A stretch of 64,000 nt of DNA from Marinobacterium rhizophilum DSM 18822 (GTDB lineage: Bacteria > Pseudomonadota > Gammaproteobacteria > Pseudomonadales > Balneatricaceae), in NCBI RefSeq assembly GCF_000378045.1, contig NZ_KB899111.1, positions 1 to 64,000 of the forward strand, in the 5' to 3' direction. The notes below the pieces were generated by a model. The model searched no databases, had not been told where the DNA came from, and saw nothing but the letters and a program-made list of their open reading frames with translations. Each line of letters opens with the position of its first letter. Position 1 is the first letter of the stretch. The position numbers and the translations under genes were made by a program. This document shows positions 5,302 to 51,801 of this stretch, piece after piece.

Positions 5302-7254
5302 GTGAGCACTATCACAATTACCGTTCCAGACCTGAGTGGCGCCTCGGATGTAGATGTCGTCGAGGTACTGGTCAAGGCCGGCGATGTCATTGCCGAAGGC
5401 GACAGCCTGATTGCCGTTGAGACCGATAAAGCCTCAATGGAAGTTCCGTCTACCCATGGCGGTACAGTCAAGGAAGTGATTATCCAGGAAGGCGGCACCT
5501 GTAACGAAGGTGACCAGATCCTGTTACTGGAAACCGGAGCCGCCGCTGAGGCTGAGGCTCCTGCTGCAGCGGCGCCCGCCGCGGCGGCACCTGCAGCGGC
5601 AGCGCCTGCTGCTGCCGCTGCTCCGGCCGCAGCAGCCAGTGTCGAAGAAGTTCGAGTACCGGATCTCAGCGGTGCTACCGATGTCGACGTGGTTGAAGTG
5701 CTGGTCAAGGCCGGTGACGTTATTGCCGAGGGTGACAGCCTGATTGCCGTCGAAACCGACAAGGCATCCATGGAAGTGCCGGCGCCAATGAGCGGCACGG
5801 TCAAGGAAGTCAAGATTGCGGCGGGCGGCACCTGCAACGAAGGCGATCTGATCCTGATGCTTGAAGTGGCAGGTTCGGTAGCCGCCGCGCCCCAGGCAGA
5901 GGCTCCGGCCGCTGCTGCCGCGGCGCCTGCACCAGCTGCGGCACCGGCGGCACCCGCTGTTGCCGGCGGTATCGAGGAAGTTCGGGTTCCGGATCTGAGC
6001 GGTGCGACCGATGTCGATGTCATCGAAGTGCTGGTCAAGGCCGGTGATGTCATTGCCGAGGGCGACAGCCTGATGGCGCTGGAAACCGACAAGGCTTCGA
6101 TGGAAGTGCCGGCGCCCAAGGGCGGTACCGTCAAGTCCGTCAGCATCAGTGCTGGTGCGACCTGCAACGAAGGTGATGTCATCCTGATGCTGGAGGTGGC
6201 GGGCAGTGCTGCGGTTGCAGCGCCTGCTGCCGCTGCTCCTGCACCTGCTGGAGCCACACCGGCGCCTGCGGCACCGGCCAAGGCTGCCCCGGCGGCTTCG
6301 GCTACTACGGTCAACCAGGCCCTGGAACAGAAAAATCGCAGTGTCCACGCAGGACCGGCTGTACGTGCCATTGCCCGCGAGTTTGGCGTTGATCTGTCCT
6401 TGGTAAGCGGTACCGGTCGTCGTGGCCGTATCGTTAAGGAAGACGTACAGAACTTCGTCAAGACCTCCCTCAAGGCGCTGGCTGAGAAGCCGGCCGGAGG
6501 CAGCGTTGTTGCGGGTGCCGGTATTCCTGCCATTCCTGCCATCGATTTCAGCCAGTTCGGCGAGATCGAAATGCAGAAGATGAGCAAGGTTGCCAAGGTG
6601 ACGGCGGCGAACATGACACGTTGCTGGCTTAATGTGCCGCACGTGACCCAGTTCGACAAGGCGGATATCACTGAACTGGAAGCCTTCCGCAAGGAAATGA
6701 AGGACGCTGCAGCGAAAGAGGGTGTGAAACTCACGCCGCTGCCGTTCATCATCAAGGCGGTGGCCCAGGCGCTGAAGGAAAACCCCAAGTTCAATGCTTC
6801 GCTGCATGCCGACGGCGAACACATTGTGCTGAAGAAATACATCAATGTCGGTCTGGCGGTGGATACGCCGAACGGCCTGATGGTCCCGGTGATCAAGGAT
6901 GCGGACAAAAAGTCGATCTACCAGTTGTCACTGGAAGCGAACGAACTGGCTGGCAAGGCCAAGGACCGCAAACTGAAGCCCAACGAGATGCAGGGCGGCT
7001 GCTTTACCATCTCGAGCCTGGGCGGCATTGGCGGAACCGGCTTTACGCCGATCGTGCCGGCGCCGGAAGTTGGTATCCTTGGTGTATCCAAAGCGGACAT
7101 CGAACCGCGCTGGAACGGCAAGGAGTTCGCGCCGCGTCTGATGCTGCCGCTGTGCCTGTCGTATGACCACCGGGCGATCAATGGTGGGGATGCTGGACGC
7201 TTCCTGACCTACCTGAACAGTCTGCTGAGCGATATTCGTCGCTTGGTGCTGTAG
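5302..7254 (+). CDS. aceF: Dihydrolipoamide acetyltransferase (E2) with three lipoyl domains
   Basis: This is the core E2 of the pyruvate dehydrogenase complex, moving acetyl groups from E1 to CoA. In order there are three near-identical lipoyl domains with ETDKASM lipoylation sites at Lys43, Lys154 and Lys264, each followed by an Ala-Pro rich linker. A peripheral subunit-binding domain (about 348-387, AVRAIAREFGVD..GRRGRIVKEDV) comes next. The acetyltransferase domain ends in SYDHRAINGGDAGRF with the catalytic His at about 623. The start is a GTG with GAGGA upstream. Two terminators follow. No lpd (E3) gene follows in this window. Confidence 0.97.
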   Translation: MSTITITVPDLSGASDVDVVEVLVKAGDVIAEGDSLIAVETDKASMEVPSTHGGTVKEVIIQEGGTCNEGDQILLLETGAAAEAEAPAAAAPAAAAPAAAAPAAAAAPAAAASVEEVRVPDLSGATDVDVVEVLVKAGDVIAEGDSLIAVETDKASMEVPAPMSGTVKEVKIAAGGTCNEGDLILMLEVAGSVAAAPQAEAPAAAAAAPAPAAAPAAPAVAGGIEEVRVPDLSGATDVDVIEVLVKAGDVIAEGDSLMALETDKASMEVPAPKGGTVKSVSISAGATCNEGDVILMLEVAGSAAVAAPAAAAPAPAGATPAPAAPAKAAPAASATTVNQALEQKNRSVHAGPAVRAIAREFGVDLSLVSGTGRRGRIVKEDVQNFVKTSLKALAEKPAGGSVVAGAGIPAIPAIDFSQFGEIEMQKMSKVAKVTAANMTRCWLNVPHVTQFDKADITELEAFRKEMKDAAAKEGVKLTPLPFIIKAVAQALKENPKFNASLHADGEHIVLKKYINVGLAVDTPNGLMVPVIKDADKKSIYQLSLEANELAGKAKDRKLKPNEMQGGCFTISSLGGIGGTGFTPIVPAPEVGILGVSKADIEPRWNGKEFAPRLMLPLCLSYDHRAINGGDAGRFLTYLNSLLSDIRRLVL

Positions 7255-42099: not shown

Positions 42100-43316
42100 T
42101 GATGAAGTACTGGCAGGCATTGCAGCCACAGCAGAAGGGTGCCTTGCCATTTGACCCCTGGTTGCTGCTGGCCGCCGTGAGCCTGGTACTGACCGGCTTC
42201 GTGATGATTACCTCGGCATCGATGGATGTGGCGGCCGAGCGTTTCGGCGGTGCCTTTTTCTTCAGTATCCGTCATGGCGTTTTCATCGTCATTGGCCTGG
42301 TGCTGGCGCTGGTCGTGTCACGCATTCCGCTGGCCTTCTGGCATCGCATGGGGCCTGTGCTGTTGCTGATAGCCCTGCTGTTGCTGGTGCTGGTGCTGGT
42401 TCCCGGCGTGGGACGTGAAGTCAATGGCAGCCGACGCTGGATTGGCCTGGGGCCGATTAACCTGCAGGCATCCGAGGTCGCCAAGTTCTTCATGGTGCTG
42501 TACCTCAGTGGCTATCTGGTGCGGCGTCTGTCCGAGGTACGCACCAGCTGGACCGGTGTGGCCAAACCAGCATTGCCGCTGGGTATCCTCGTGTTCCTGC
42601 TGATCATGGAACCCGATTACGGAGCAGCGGTTGTGCTGATGGGTACGGTCATGGGCATGATCTTTCTGGGCGGCATGCGGTTTGTGCAATTCCTGATGGT
42701 GACCCTCGGTGCCGGCGCGCTGATCGGCGTACTGGCGATTGCACAACCGTATCGACTGGAGCGTCTCAAGTCCTTCCAGGATCCCTGGTCCGACCCCTTC
42801 GGTGCCGGTTACCAGTTGTCCCAGGCACAGATTGCTTTTGGTCGCGGGGACTGGTTCGGCACCGGGCTGGGCAGCAGCGTGCAGAAACTGTTTTACCTGC
42901 CGGAGGCTCACACCGATTTCGTGTTCTCGGTTGTCGCAGAAGAGTTTGGCCTGATGGGGGCCTTGCTGGTGATCGGTCTTTACATGTTGCTGGTGACACG
43001 GGTCTTCCTGATCGGCCGTCAGGCGGAGAAGCAAAAAGAGTTTTTCATGGCATATGCCGCCTATGGCTTCGGCTTTATCTTTGCCGGGCAGGCATTGATC
43101 AACATCGGAGTGAATGTCGGCGCGTTGCCGACCAAGGGGCTGACGCTGCCACTGCTGAGTTACGGTGGCAGTAGCCTGCTGGTGTGCTGCGCCATGATTG
43201 CCATCGTGCAGCGAATAGATTTTGAACTAAAAACCAGGCGTCTGGCAGCAGCGCCGCGCACAAGTCGGCGCCGTCGTGCCCGCACCGATGCACAAGTAAC
43301 GGAGTCTGTGGCATGA
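42096..43316 (+). CDS. ftsW: Septal peptidoglycan glycosyltransferase FtsW
   Basis: FtsW is a SEDS-family polymerase that works with FtsI at the septum. The 406-residue protein has about ten membrane segments. SEDS signatures are GSRRWIGLGPINLQASEVAKFF, the VLLPEPDYGA-like IMEPDYGAAVVLM, DPWSDPFGAGYQLSQAQIAFGRG (in part), the LPEAHTDFVFSVVAEEFGL motif and LPTKGLTLPLLSYGGSS. The tail is basic. It overlaps murD and murG by ATGA at both ends. Confidence 0.98.
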   Translation: MMMKYWQALQPQQKGALPFDPWLLLAAVSLVLTGFVMITSASMDVAAERFGGAFFFSIRHGVFIVIGLVLALVVSRIPLAFWHRMGPVLLLIALLLLVLVLVPGVGREVNGSRRWIGLGPINLQASEVAKFFMVLYLSGYLVRRLSEVRTSWTGVAKPALPLGILVFLLIMEPDYGAAVVLMGTVMGMIFLGGMRFVQFLMVTLGAGALIGVLAIAQPYRLERLKSFQDPWSDPFGAGYQLSQAQIAFGRGDWFGTGLGSSVQKLFYLPEAHTDFVFSVVAEEFGLMGALLVIGLYMLLVTRVFLIGRQAEKQKEFFMAYAAYGFGFIFAGQALINIGVNVGALPTKGLTLPLLSYGGSSLLVCCAMIAIVQRIDFELKTRRLAAAPRTSRRRRARTDAQVTESVA

Positions 43317-44398
43317 CGGCCTGGCAGGGTAAAAAGGTGCTGGTCATGGCCGGCGGTACGGGCGGTCATGTCTTTCCGGCTCTGGCGACGGCCCGTGAGC
43401 TGCAGCGCGAAGGCGTGCAGGTGGAGTGGCTTGGCACGCGGCGAGGTATTGAGTCAGACCTGGTTCCGGCCGCCGGTATCGAGCTGCACTGCATTGATGT
43501 TGCGGGCCTGCGCGGCAAGGGACGGCTCAGCCTGGTGTTGGCGCCATTGCGCCTGGTGCGGGCACTCTGGCAGGCCTGGTGCCTGCTGCGCCGCTACAAG
43601 CCTGATCTGGTGCTGGGCATGGGAGGCTTTGCCGCCGGCCCGGGCGGTCTGGCTGCACGGTTGCAGGGGCGCCCGCTGGTGATACATGAGCAGAACGCAA
43701 CCGCTGGCATGACCAACCGTATTCTGTCCCGCATTGCGACACGCGTGCTCGAAGCCTTTGGTGGCGCCTTTGAGGCTGGCCGTAATGTCACGCTGACAGG
43801 AAATCCGGTGCGCGGAGCCATTCTCGATCTGGCGCCGCCGGAAGAACGCATGCAGGGGCGTACCGGCCCGCTGCGCCTGCTGGTGGTCGGCGGCAGTCTG
43901 GGCGCGCGGGCGATTAATGATCTGTTGCCACGCGTGCTCGCCTCGCTGCCGCCGGAACAGCGACCGCAGGTGCGCCACCAGACAGGCAAAAAGCTGCTCG
44001 ACGAGACGCAGGCGCTGTATCGCGAGTGTGGCGTCGAGGCCGAAGTGGTGCCCTTTATCGATCGCATGGATGAGGCCTATGGCTGGGCTGATCTGGTGCT
44101 GTGCCGGGCTGGTGCCCTGACCGTGAGCGAACTGTCCATCGCCGGCGTCGCTGCCGTGCTGGTGCCCTTTCCCCATGCAGTGGACGATCACCAGACCGGC
44201 AATGCCGGCTATCTGGCAGGCCCGGGAGCGGCTTTGCTGATTCAGCAGCGCGATCTGGATGAGGCTGCGCTGAAAAAATTACTTGAGCAGCTGAGCAGCC
44301 GGGAAACGCTGCTCAGCATGGCAAAGATCGCGCGCGCACAGGGCCGGCCACAAGCCAGCCGCGACGTGGCACGAATCTGCCTGGAAACCATGAAATGA
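43313..44398 (+). CDS. murG: Lipid II synthase (UDP-GlcNAc transferase)
   Basis: MurG transfers GlcNAc to lipid I at the inner face of the membrane. The N-terminal Gly-rich loop is MAGGTGGHVFPALA; WLGTRRGIESDLVPAAGI and GFAAGPGGLAARL follow. The nucleotide-sugar part has VVGGSLGARAIND, LVLCRAGALTVSEL and VLVPFPHAVDDHQTGNA. The product has 361 residues. Its end (ICLETMK, then ATGA) is the template of the amplified junction that follows: the next two repeats end in TCLEITK. Confidence 0.98.
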   Translation: MTAWQGKKVLVMAGGTGGHVFPALATARELQREGVQVEWLGTRRGIESDLVPAAGIELHCIDVAGLRGKGRLSLVLAPLRLVRALWQAWCLLRRYKPDLVLGMGGFAAGPGGLAARLQGRPLVIHEQNATAGMTNRILSRIATRVLEAFGGAFEAGRNVTLTGNPVRGAILDLAPPEERMQGRTGPLRLLVVGGSLGARAINDLLPRVLASLPPEQRPQVRHQTGKKLLDETQALYRECGVEAEVVPFIDRMDEAYGWADLVLCRAGALTVSELSIAGVAAVLVPFPHAVDDHQTGNAGYLAGPGAALLIQQRDLDEAALKKLLEQLSSRETLLSMAKIARAQGRPQASRDVARICLETMK

Positions 44399-44475
44399 GC
44401 AAGATACAGAAAAATTCGATGCGGTTTGAAGTACCGGATGACGTGACGCGAACCGGTTTGGAAATCACGAAATGA
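44395..44475 (+). CDS. Micro-ORF 1 between murG and murC (26 residues)
   Basis: The ATG overlaps the murG stop (ATGA) and the TGA overlaps the next micro-ORF start in the same way. The peptide begins MSKIQKNSMRFEVPDDVT and ends GLEITK. It resembles a shortened murC N terminus fused to the murG C terminus. No domain is visible. It may be translated by coupling only; function, if any, is unknown. Confidence 0.5.
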   Translation: MSKIQKNSMRFEVPDDVTRTGLEITK

Positions 44476-44588
44476 GTACCGTAATGCAGAAGAGCCCGAC
44501 AGTGTTTGAAGTTCCGGCCGAGATGACACGGATACTACGCCAAGTGTTCATCGACGTGACGCCAACCTGCCTGGAAATCACGAAATGA
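44472..44588 (+). CDS. Micro-ORF 2 between murG and murC (38 residues)
   Basis: The peptide begins [15 protein letters not shown], exactly as MurC does, and ends TCLEITK, like the MurG C terminus. ATGA overlaps couple it on both sides. It differs from micro-ORF 3 by one Met/Val change and one extra codon. Confidence 0.55.
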   Translation: MSTVMQKSPTVFEVPAEMTRILRQVFIDVTPTCLEITK

Positions 44589-44694
44589 GTACCGTAATGC
44601 AGAAGAGCCCGACAGTGTTTGAAGTTCCGGCCGAGGTGACACGGATACGCCAAGTGTTCATCGACGTGACGCCAACCTGCCTGGAAATCACGAA

Positions 44695-44698
<4 letters not shown>
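44585..44698 (+). CDS. Micro-ORF 3 between murG and murC (37 residues)
   Basis: It is nearly identical to micro-ORF 2 and ends on the ATGA that starts murC. Ribosomes reading murG would have to terminate and restart three times in the amplified junction before reaching murC, unless murC is initiated independently. Confidence 0.55.
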
Positions 44699-47916
<3,218 letters not shown>

Positions 47917-50612: not shown

Positions 50613-50681
50613 TTGCTTCGCTCGACTCACCTTTGATACTATTCGCCGCCTCTGCGGGCGGAACCTGGTGTGACTACGAGC

Positions 50682-51596
50682 ATGATCAGACAGCGTACTT
50701 TGAAGAACAGCATCAAGGCGACGGGGATCGGGCTGCACACCGGACAGAAAGTGTACCTGACACTCAAGCCCGCACCGGTGGATACGGGTATCGTTTTTCG
50801 GCGGGTCGATCTGGACCCTGTCGTGGAGATCCCGGCTCGAGCCGAGCTGGTGGTGGATACCACGCTGTCGAGTAACCTGTCAGCTGGCGGTGCCCGGGTG
50901 GCAACTGTCGAGCATCTGATGTCGGCTCTGGCGGGGCTTGGCATCGACAACGCCTATGTGGAGCTGAGTGCCGAAGAAGTGCCGATCATGGATGGCAGTG
51001 CTGCGCCCTTTGTATTCCTGATCCAGTCCGCTGGCATTCAGGAGCAGGAAGCGCCCAAGCAGTTTATCCGTATCACGCGCGAGATCAGTTTTACCGCCGA
51101 CGACAAGGTAGCGACCTTCAAGCCATTTGACGGCTTCAAGGTGGGTTTTACCATCGAATTCGATCATCCCGCCTTCAGTGATCGCGACATGGAGGCCTGT
51201 CTGGATTTTTCCAGCACCAACTTCGTGCGTGAAGTCAGCCGGGCCCGTACCTTCGGTTTTATGCGCGATATCGAGTACCTGCGTTCGAAGAACCTGGTCC
51301 TGGGGGGCAGTTTCGACAATGCGATTGTGGTGGATGACCACCGTATTCTGAACACCGAGGGATTGCGTTACGAGGACGAGTTCGTCAAGCACAAGATTCT
51401 GGACGCGGTAGGGGATCTTTACCTGGCAGGCAAAAGCCTGATCGGTGAGTTTATCGGTCACAAGTCCGGTCATTATTTGAACAATATGTTGGTGCGCAAA
51501 CTGCTGGAAACCAAGGATGCCTGGGAACTCGTGACCTTCGAAGAGGACGATGCCAAGGCGCCGATCGCCTTCGTCAAGGCCACCCAAACCGTCTGA
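50682..51596 (+). CDS. lpxC: UDP-3-O-acyl-GlcNAc deacetylase
   Basis: LpxC is the zinc enzyme of the committed step of lipid A synthesis. The 304-residue product begins [21 protein letters not shown]. Zinc-site and catalytic motifs are [36 protein letters not shown], and [15 protein letters not shown], followed by [11 protein letters not shown]. The ATG at 50682 gives the standard N terminus; a GTG four codons upstream is possible. It closes the dcw cluster and is followed by a strong terminator. Confidence 0.98.
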
Positions 51597-51625
51597 TTTG
51601 TATGCAGTCTCATTGATCTTTGTGC

Positions 51626-51655
51626 AATCAGGCCGGGCGTTTGCCCGGCCTGATT
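51626..51655 (+). terminator. Terminator after lpxC
   Basis: A perfect 13-bp stem (51626-51638 with 51643-51655, AATCAGGCCGGGC/GCCCGGCCTGATT) has a GTTT loop. The T-run after it is poor (GCGTT), so release may be partial. It marks the end of the dcw cluster. Confidence 0.7.
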
Positions 51656-51801
51656 GCGTTCAGGCGGACGGGTTTCTGTCATGCCGGAAAATAATTACGT
51701 TTAAAATTCTACTCGGCGCCCCAATATGGGTAGAATGTCGAGTTGTTTTTTCGTGGCACGCGCGTAAAAGTCTTTGTATTCAACTGGTTGAAATTCGGAT
51801 T

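Follow-up and report, generated by a model that had tools for sequence, protein, structure and literature searches.

Between murG and murC in the window, the 64,000-nucleotide stretch of Marinobacterium rhizophilum DNA analysed here (genome G000), lies a tandem duplication of the joint at which the tail of murG meets the head of murC. The copies form a chain of short overlapping reading frames, which recurs at the same junction in other species of the genus, and related chains occur at further operon joints. The explanation favoured here, to which a probability of roughly two in three is assigned, is that such duplications couple themselves: nearly transparent to ribosomes, they would be tolerated and vary in copy number, and broken ones would be lost through their effect on the downstream gene.

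Anatomy of the murG–murC array

The genes of the region, named by their NCBIfam matches, run ftsW, murG, murC and a gene for D-Ala-D-Ala ligase, to which we give the name ddlB, and ftsW-murG-murC-ddl is the order of gammaproteobacterial dcw clusters. On the plus strand, murG (43313..44398; TIGR01133, 347 bits, above the NCBIfam cut-off) ends in the codons ICLETMK followed by a TGA stop that lies within ATGA, and it is this tail that is copied in the array. Three micro-ORFs follow on the same strand. Micro-ORF 1 (44395..44475; 26 aa, MSKIQKNSMRFEVPDDVTRTGLEITK) is the most diverged of all copies and bears only a loose likeness to MurC and MurG, micro-ORF 2 (44472..44588; 38 aa) has a MurC-like head and a MurG-like tail, and micro-ORF 3 (44585..44698; 37 aa) repeats this design minus one codon. 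The head of murC itself (44695..46137, plus strand; TIGR01082, 594 bits, above the NCBIfam cut-off) is the copied start region. The next joint, at which the ligase gene (46130..47110, plus strand) overlaps murC by the 8 nt of ATGACTGA, is present in single copy in the window.

The copied unit thus consists of the murG end, ATGA and the murC start. TRF reports a plus-strand tandem array at 44440..44735 with a period of 110, 2.7 copies and 95% matches, and the murG 3′ end with its ATGA joint occurs four times on that strand within 44362..44699, at start-to-start distances of 77, 113 and 110. ATGA is found at all four joints of the chain (44395, 44472, 44585 and 44695), and each of the three spacings is 2 mod 3, as an ATGA joint needs. 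With 96% identity between units 2 and 3 across 110 nt, and with all matches to the unit (E ≤ 0.001) confined to the murG–murC junction in seven of seven genus genomes, the likeness reflects copying and not chance. The same confinement led to the rejection of a dispersed element, and a foreign or mobile insertion at the start codon does not describe the locus either, the head being murC, the tail murG and the process a local duplication. An amplified junction, micro-ORFs of 26, 38 and 37 residues in a complete ATGA chain, and length differences in multiples of three with every ATGA kept had all been described in the first-pass annotation and are borne out; its statement that the peptides start like MurC and end like MurG holds for micro-ORFs 2 and 3 and only loosely for the diverged micro-ORF 1. 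None of the three micro-ORFs has an NCBIfam match. Elsewhere in the window, a 330-nt tandem repeat (5347-6278) lies within a 650-aa ORF starting MSTITITVPDLSGASDVDVVEVLVK, which looks like a dehydrogenase E2 with its lipoyl domain repeated.

Distribution among relatives and recurrence at other joints

Among 116 genomes of the family, 111 have a murC match at E ≤ 1e-200, and 110 were compared after G093 had been set aside because of a contig edge. In 104 of these 110 the stop codon of murG lies 43-83 nt before residue 24 of MurC; in the other six, all of which fall in the window's genus, the distance is 166-496 nt. The genus set comprises seven genomes (G000-G006, one per species, including M. 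profundum), so that six of seven have a long junction; the G000 assembly is a 58-contig draft, and the single-contig genomes G001 and G004 carry arrays too. Eighty named loci from other collections were added, 78 of them with both genes (L060 and L080 lack murG). Here the murG stop lies 28-88 nt from MurC residue 19 except in L030 (M. profundum; 207 nt) and L085 (236 nt), and no murG- or murC-like copies were seen in the long junction of L085.

The first-pass annotation had proposed counting the copies in related genomes. Tracing from stop to start finds complete relays in five of the seven genus genomes, and both copy number and unit type differ between these species: the murG–murC chain holds three micro-ORFs in G000, two in G005, three each in G001 and G003, and seven in G004, where one stop has shifted. 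Some joints in G001, G003 and G004 read GTGAGTAA, where the overlap is 8 nt long and each of the other two frames also meets a stop. G002 has a plain GTGA overlap and no array. In G006 (L008) the junction is 104 nt longer than in G002 and contains a second murG-like tail, CLQMVK, and stop-to-start tracing gave no coupled frame or chain there. With G002 lacking the array and G006 carrying a broken insert, the array is not required in the genus.

At silent sites of murG and murC, the five chain species lie 0.36-0.90 apart and 0.75-1.19 from the other two. G005 (L003) is nearest to G001 (L005), at 0.357 for these two genes and likewise over 28 genes, and despite this closeness its array is built from the unit type of G000 (L001), to which it is 91% identical. 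The likely cause is that arrays have been exchanged by recombination between species or rebuilt repeatedly, and because array type disagrees with gene relationship the five chains are less independent as witnesses.

Tandem arrays and duplicated gene starts were sought, without regard to frame, in 2.0 Mb of G004 (C1:1-2000000, L228-L327) and in the dcw regions. At the murC–ddlB joint, G004 has three 52-aa micro-ORFs with a Ddl-like start and a MurC-like end (period 151), linked by 8-nt overlaps at ATGACTGA joints; among the five genomes compared, the other four (G000, G001, G003 and G005) have this joint singly. Before a gene for an FtsX-type permease (Pfam), preceded by a gene judged by eye to be ABC ATPase-like, G004 has two micro-ORFs, 74 and 71 codons long, whose joints overlap by 1 nt; the permease joint of G003 carries a separate micro-ORF of 56 codons, and those of G000, G001 and G005 carry none. 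At bluB (TIGR02476) in G004, three coupled micro-ORFs of 54, 54 and 52 codons occur (L265, around 1389-1851); one period is 155 rather than 154, and the relay is still coupled because the joint, ATGAGCCCTGA, has stops in two frames. Two micro-ORFs at a urtE/livF-type ATPase gene, so named from best NCBIfam matches that lie under their cut-offs, form a coupled chain that runs on into the gene, the first of them starting about 95 nt downstream of the preceding gene. The accC-like carboxylase joint of G004 has two micro-ORFs, whereas the three short ORFs at sbcD are unlinked and the last ends 12 nt short of the gene.

Five evident genes in the 2.0 Mb passed the filter of Pfam and NCBIfam matches, and at four of the five the micro-ORFs are coupled. 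Pfam was searched with 17 of the 18 listed candidate ORFs and the permease, the eighteenth being the accC-like gene read from a start farther upstream; an antisense ORF at 1262458 in a Big_12 region was outside this candidate set. Where Pfam gave no match, the candidate was set aside as an ORF belonging to no evident gene; a Big_12 repeat protein was excluded as well, its repeats being coding ones. With murC–ddlB and the G003 permease included, six of seven cases are coupled, or five of seven if the chain must connect to the gene upstream as well. Random duplications simulated at single-copy relatives of the murG–murC, murC–ddlB, permease and livF-type joints are coupled in 33-69% of runs, and hand arithmetic at 0.42 each gives p of about 0.025 for six of seven and about 0.12 for five of seven, which is at most suggestive. 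As a control, the scan was repeated on 617,595 bases, made up of 79 loci (mostly dcw regions) from other species plus 50 kb from E. coli; it gave no hit, a weak result given that the G004 rate predicts only one to two.

The 2.0 Mb of G004 contain 17 tandem arrays (period at least 35) outside long ORFs, several at gene 3′ ends; one array at 50680-51762 has 10.2 copies of 106 nt. In G003 (C210:80334-80551, L220), 3.9 copies of a 55-nt repeat stand at the end of a gene starting MSDQETELQVLRDQIDQIDQQ, before a co-directed ORF.

Constraint on the relays and signals for coupling

Of these joints, the accC-like one gives the best test. Six of seven genus genomes have a chimaeric micro-ORF of 36-42 codons (L269:5269-5504 in G004; L350-L354) that begins like the carboxylase gene, for example with MFNKILIANRG, starts 4 nt past the upstream stop in the four genomes read for this point (G000, G001, G004 and G005) and runs 8 or 11 nt into the gene. 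In G003 (L359) the joint is clean, and the gene itself starts 4 nt past the upstream stop. All six carriers keep the coupled frame, and the sole length difference between them is an 18-nt in-frame deletion in G005. Simulated neutral evolution with the observed substitutions and spacer-like indel rates kept all six relays in 27 of 4000 runs at 0.05 indels per substitution and in 11 of 4000 at 0.085, and in 517 of 4000 without indels. On these simulations the open relay looks to be maintained by selection, and this is the strongest hint of selection in the analysis. Over all codons of the micro-ORF the nonsynonymous/synonymous ratio is 0.32 (p 0.0004), and over codons 13-40, in three genome pairs, it is 1.22 (p 0.61), so that the shortage of nonsynonymous change is limited to the gene-like head. 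Exchange with the real gene head explains such a head-only signal without any peptide function. Within the 2.0 Mb of G004 searched, no clear source turned up for the central part of the unit, so that at this joint inserted foreign sequence may be involved.

At murG–murC the tests say less. Shuffling the spacer yields a strict chain in 135 of 2000 cases for G000 and in 64-418 of 2000 across the five chain species, and the idea that the chain is improbable by itself was dropped on these counts. Between G001 and G003, changes affect 12 of the 223 junction sites, whereas of the fourfold sites 73 of 241 have changed in murG and 66 of 249 in murC; control regions of this pair differ at 77 of 1488 sites in gene 5′ ends, 41 of 1080 in 3′ ends and 94 of 1162 in spacers, with 47 of the changes in a single 396-nt spacer that we take to hold ftsL. 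Between G000 and G005 the sole alignable micro-ORF has 10 of 111 sites changed, compared with 119 of 1368 in gene 5′ ends, 92 of 1005 in 3′ ends and 226 of 1125 in spacers. The micro-ORF of this second pair thus diverges as gene ends do and less than spacers, and the junction of the first pair equals spacers. For sequence that resembles gene ends, low divergence was abandoned as a sign of purifying selection, as the gene-end controls diverge as little. Simulated neutral decay would leave the present chains intact, by the strict criterion, with a probability of 0.09-0.80 per species, a range that depends on rate and indels; five intact chains are at most mildly surprising, and less so if arrays have moved between species, and selection keeping the chain open is suggested only weakly here. 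Counted in frame over two genome pairs, changes in the micro-ORFs fall on 9 of the 57 synonymous sites and on 10 of the 222 nonsynonymous ones (Fisher p 0.006), a nonsynonymous/synonymous ratio of about 0.3 that comes mostly from gene-like sequence, in which head and middle are not separable. The coding constraint proposed by the first-pass annotation is not supported at the level of the peptides, given an effect confined to the gene-like head at the accC-like joint and micro-ORFs that diverge no more slowly than gene ends.

Start sites were scored against the canonical anti-Shine–Dalgarno (anti-SD) sequence as generally known, not as read from G000, where a search for 16S rRNA gave no match. 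On this scale the micro-ORFs and murC of G000 have SD energies of -3.3 kcal/mol, compared with a median of -2.8 for all ATGs, and murG and ftsW have -6.1 and -6.5. At the joints of relatives the energies range from +0.2 to -6.4, the last being the stronger site of the first micro-ORF in G004. The weak SD-like sites of G000 fit a dependence on coupling and, its start site being so weak, murC probably needs ribosomes arriving from upstream. No RNA structure was detected in the murG–murC array (z +1.51; of 100 shuffled sequences, 94 fold equally well or better), and no Rfam family exceeded its cut-off, the one match up to E 1 scoring 20.8 bits where the gathering score is 80. Nothing of note emerged in a search for promoters at murG–murC, and the three terminator-like sites found (1.2 expected) all lie within murC.

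The geometry of the joints can be set against published work on translational coupling. According to PMC12548453, coupling is best at spacings of -4 to +3 nt, and a longer overlap lowers it further than a gap of the same size; in E. coli, coupling depends strongly on distance (PMC10666635). Several joints in G001, G003 and G004 overlap by 8 nt, and the accC-like and bluB joints by 11 nt, and by PMC12548453 these should be less efficient at coupling. Throughout the window chain, stop and start overlap and the frames are co-directed. In this respect the chain resembles translationally coupled gene pairs, for which ATGA, 1-nt or 8-nt overlaps of co-directed genes are described in PMC6728339 and PMC10666635; it differs in that serial micro-ORFs have arisen here from tandem duplication of the joint.

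Precedents, rival explanations and meaning

The closest precedent is MIRU (mycobacterial interspersed repetitive units). As set out in PMC12548453, MIRU are short, apparently mobile repeats at gene starts in many mycobacteria, with an ORF coupled to its neighbour at -4 nt and an insertion likely to have little effect on expression. The coupling logic is the same, with four ATGA joints in G000 and overlaps of -4 and -8 in relatives. Membership nevertheless fails: MIRU are apparently mobile and dispersed, whereas the joints here mostly copy their own flanking genes, and the murG–murC unit is built from those genes and found nowhere else in seven of seven genomes. The first-pass annotation knew of no dcw cluster arranged in this way, which stands for the literature searched; coupled repeat ORFs of the same kind have been described as MIRU (PMC12548453). 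Searches combining murG and murC with translational coupling found nothing, and those for Marinobacterium with murC and for coupling with tandem duplication or repeats found no such arrangement or case, judged by titles and the starts of abstracts. Tandem arrays are familiar as bacterial VNTR or minisatellites. The present arrays share with these a copy number that differs between species (one genome for each of the seven), the level at which the variation is known, and differ from them in forming a relay of coupled frames. A short ORF directly upstream may supply ribosomes to a gene, as in uORF delivery and leader peptides (PMC12548453), but here the ORFs lie within an operon, several in series, and no attenuator structure was found.

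In the favoured explanation, the array would have arisen as the joint where murG and murC overlap was duplicated in tandem several times over, each copied piece bringing with it the stop that closes one frame and the start that opens the following one. Because the upstream stop sits inside the next start, a duplication of the right length (2 mod 3) automatically makes a coupled micro-ORF. We infer that the micro-ORFs are translated and that ribosomes from murG terminate and re-initiate at each ATGA, so being passed along to murC. As a duplication re-creates the joint, it would be nearly transparent for downstream expression and tolerated even in a cell-wall operon. Slippage or recombination may then expand and contract the copies, and any copy that broke the relay would leave a weakly starting gene uncoupled and would tend to disappear, selection presumably acting through that gene; the peptides themselves probably do nothing. 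The broken insert of G006, the unlinked copies at sbcD and the livF-type relay lying about 95 nt after its upstream gene speak against this account, as do the gene-end-like divergence of the micro-ORFs, the 8- and 11-nt overlaps, the stronger start site of the first micro-ORF in G004 and the disagreement between array type and flanking genes.

The unlinked copies of G006 and sbcD would be expected if the array were a purely neutral minisatellite in a genus that tends to duplicate short gene-end stretches, with murC starting alone and the chain a by-product. Such an origin would also accommodate the 17 non-ORF arrays of G004, the differing copy numbers, the ease with which shuffled spacers give strict chains and the gene-end-like divergence of the micro-ORFs. 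It is at odds with the retention of the accC-like relay in six of six carriers, rare in neutral runs with indels and less so in the 517 without, with the weak start site of murC, and with the coupling of six of seven frame-blind duplications where 0.33-0.69 was expected at the joints simulated; we regard it as unlikely, if a serious contender. The first-pass annotation had suggested that the chain could set the MurC:MurG ratio; in this reading each termination and re-initiation step would lose a fraction of the ribosomes, and copy number would tune the output. The relay geometry, the loss of coupling at unfavourable spacings (PMC12548453, PMC10666635) and the presence of the array in five species fit such a regulatory attenuator, but micro-ORF numbers run from 0 to 7 among the seven genus genomes with no known pattern, and the array has neither RNA structure nor an Rfam family above cut-off, which makes this role improbable. 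That the micro-ORFs encode functional small proteins would agree with the in-frame ratio of about 0.3 at murG–murC; it is hardly credible given the head-only signal at the accC-like joint, the want of NCBIfam matches for the three window micro-ORFs and a unit sequence that changes from joint to joint.

For annotators, runs of short ORFs like this one can be copies of gene ends. Self-coupling duplication describes a simple route by which duplications enter tight operons, a joint with its stop and start being copied as a self-contained relay, and the natural arrays make re-initiation over many successive joints directly testable. More tentatively, and with the odds against it, joints of the genus may have been repeatedly amplified into self-coupling chimaeric relays as a home-grown counterpart of MIRU, an evolvable valve tunable by copy number and kept in frame through the downstream gene. 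If that were true, the valve would act between neighbouring genes of these bacteria, essential cell-wall genes included.
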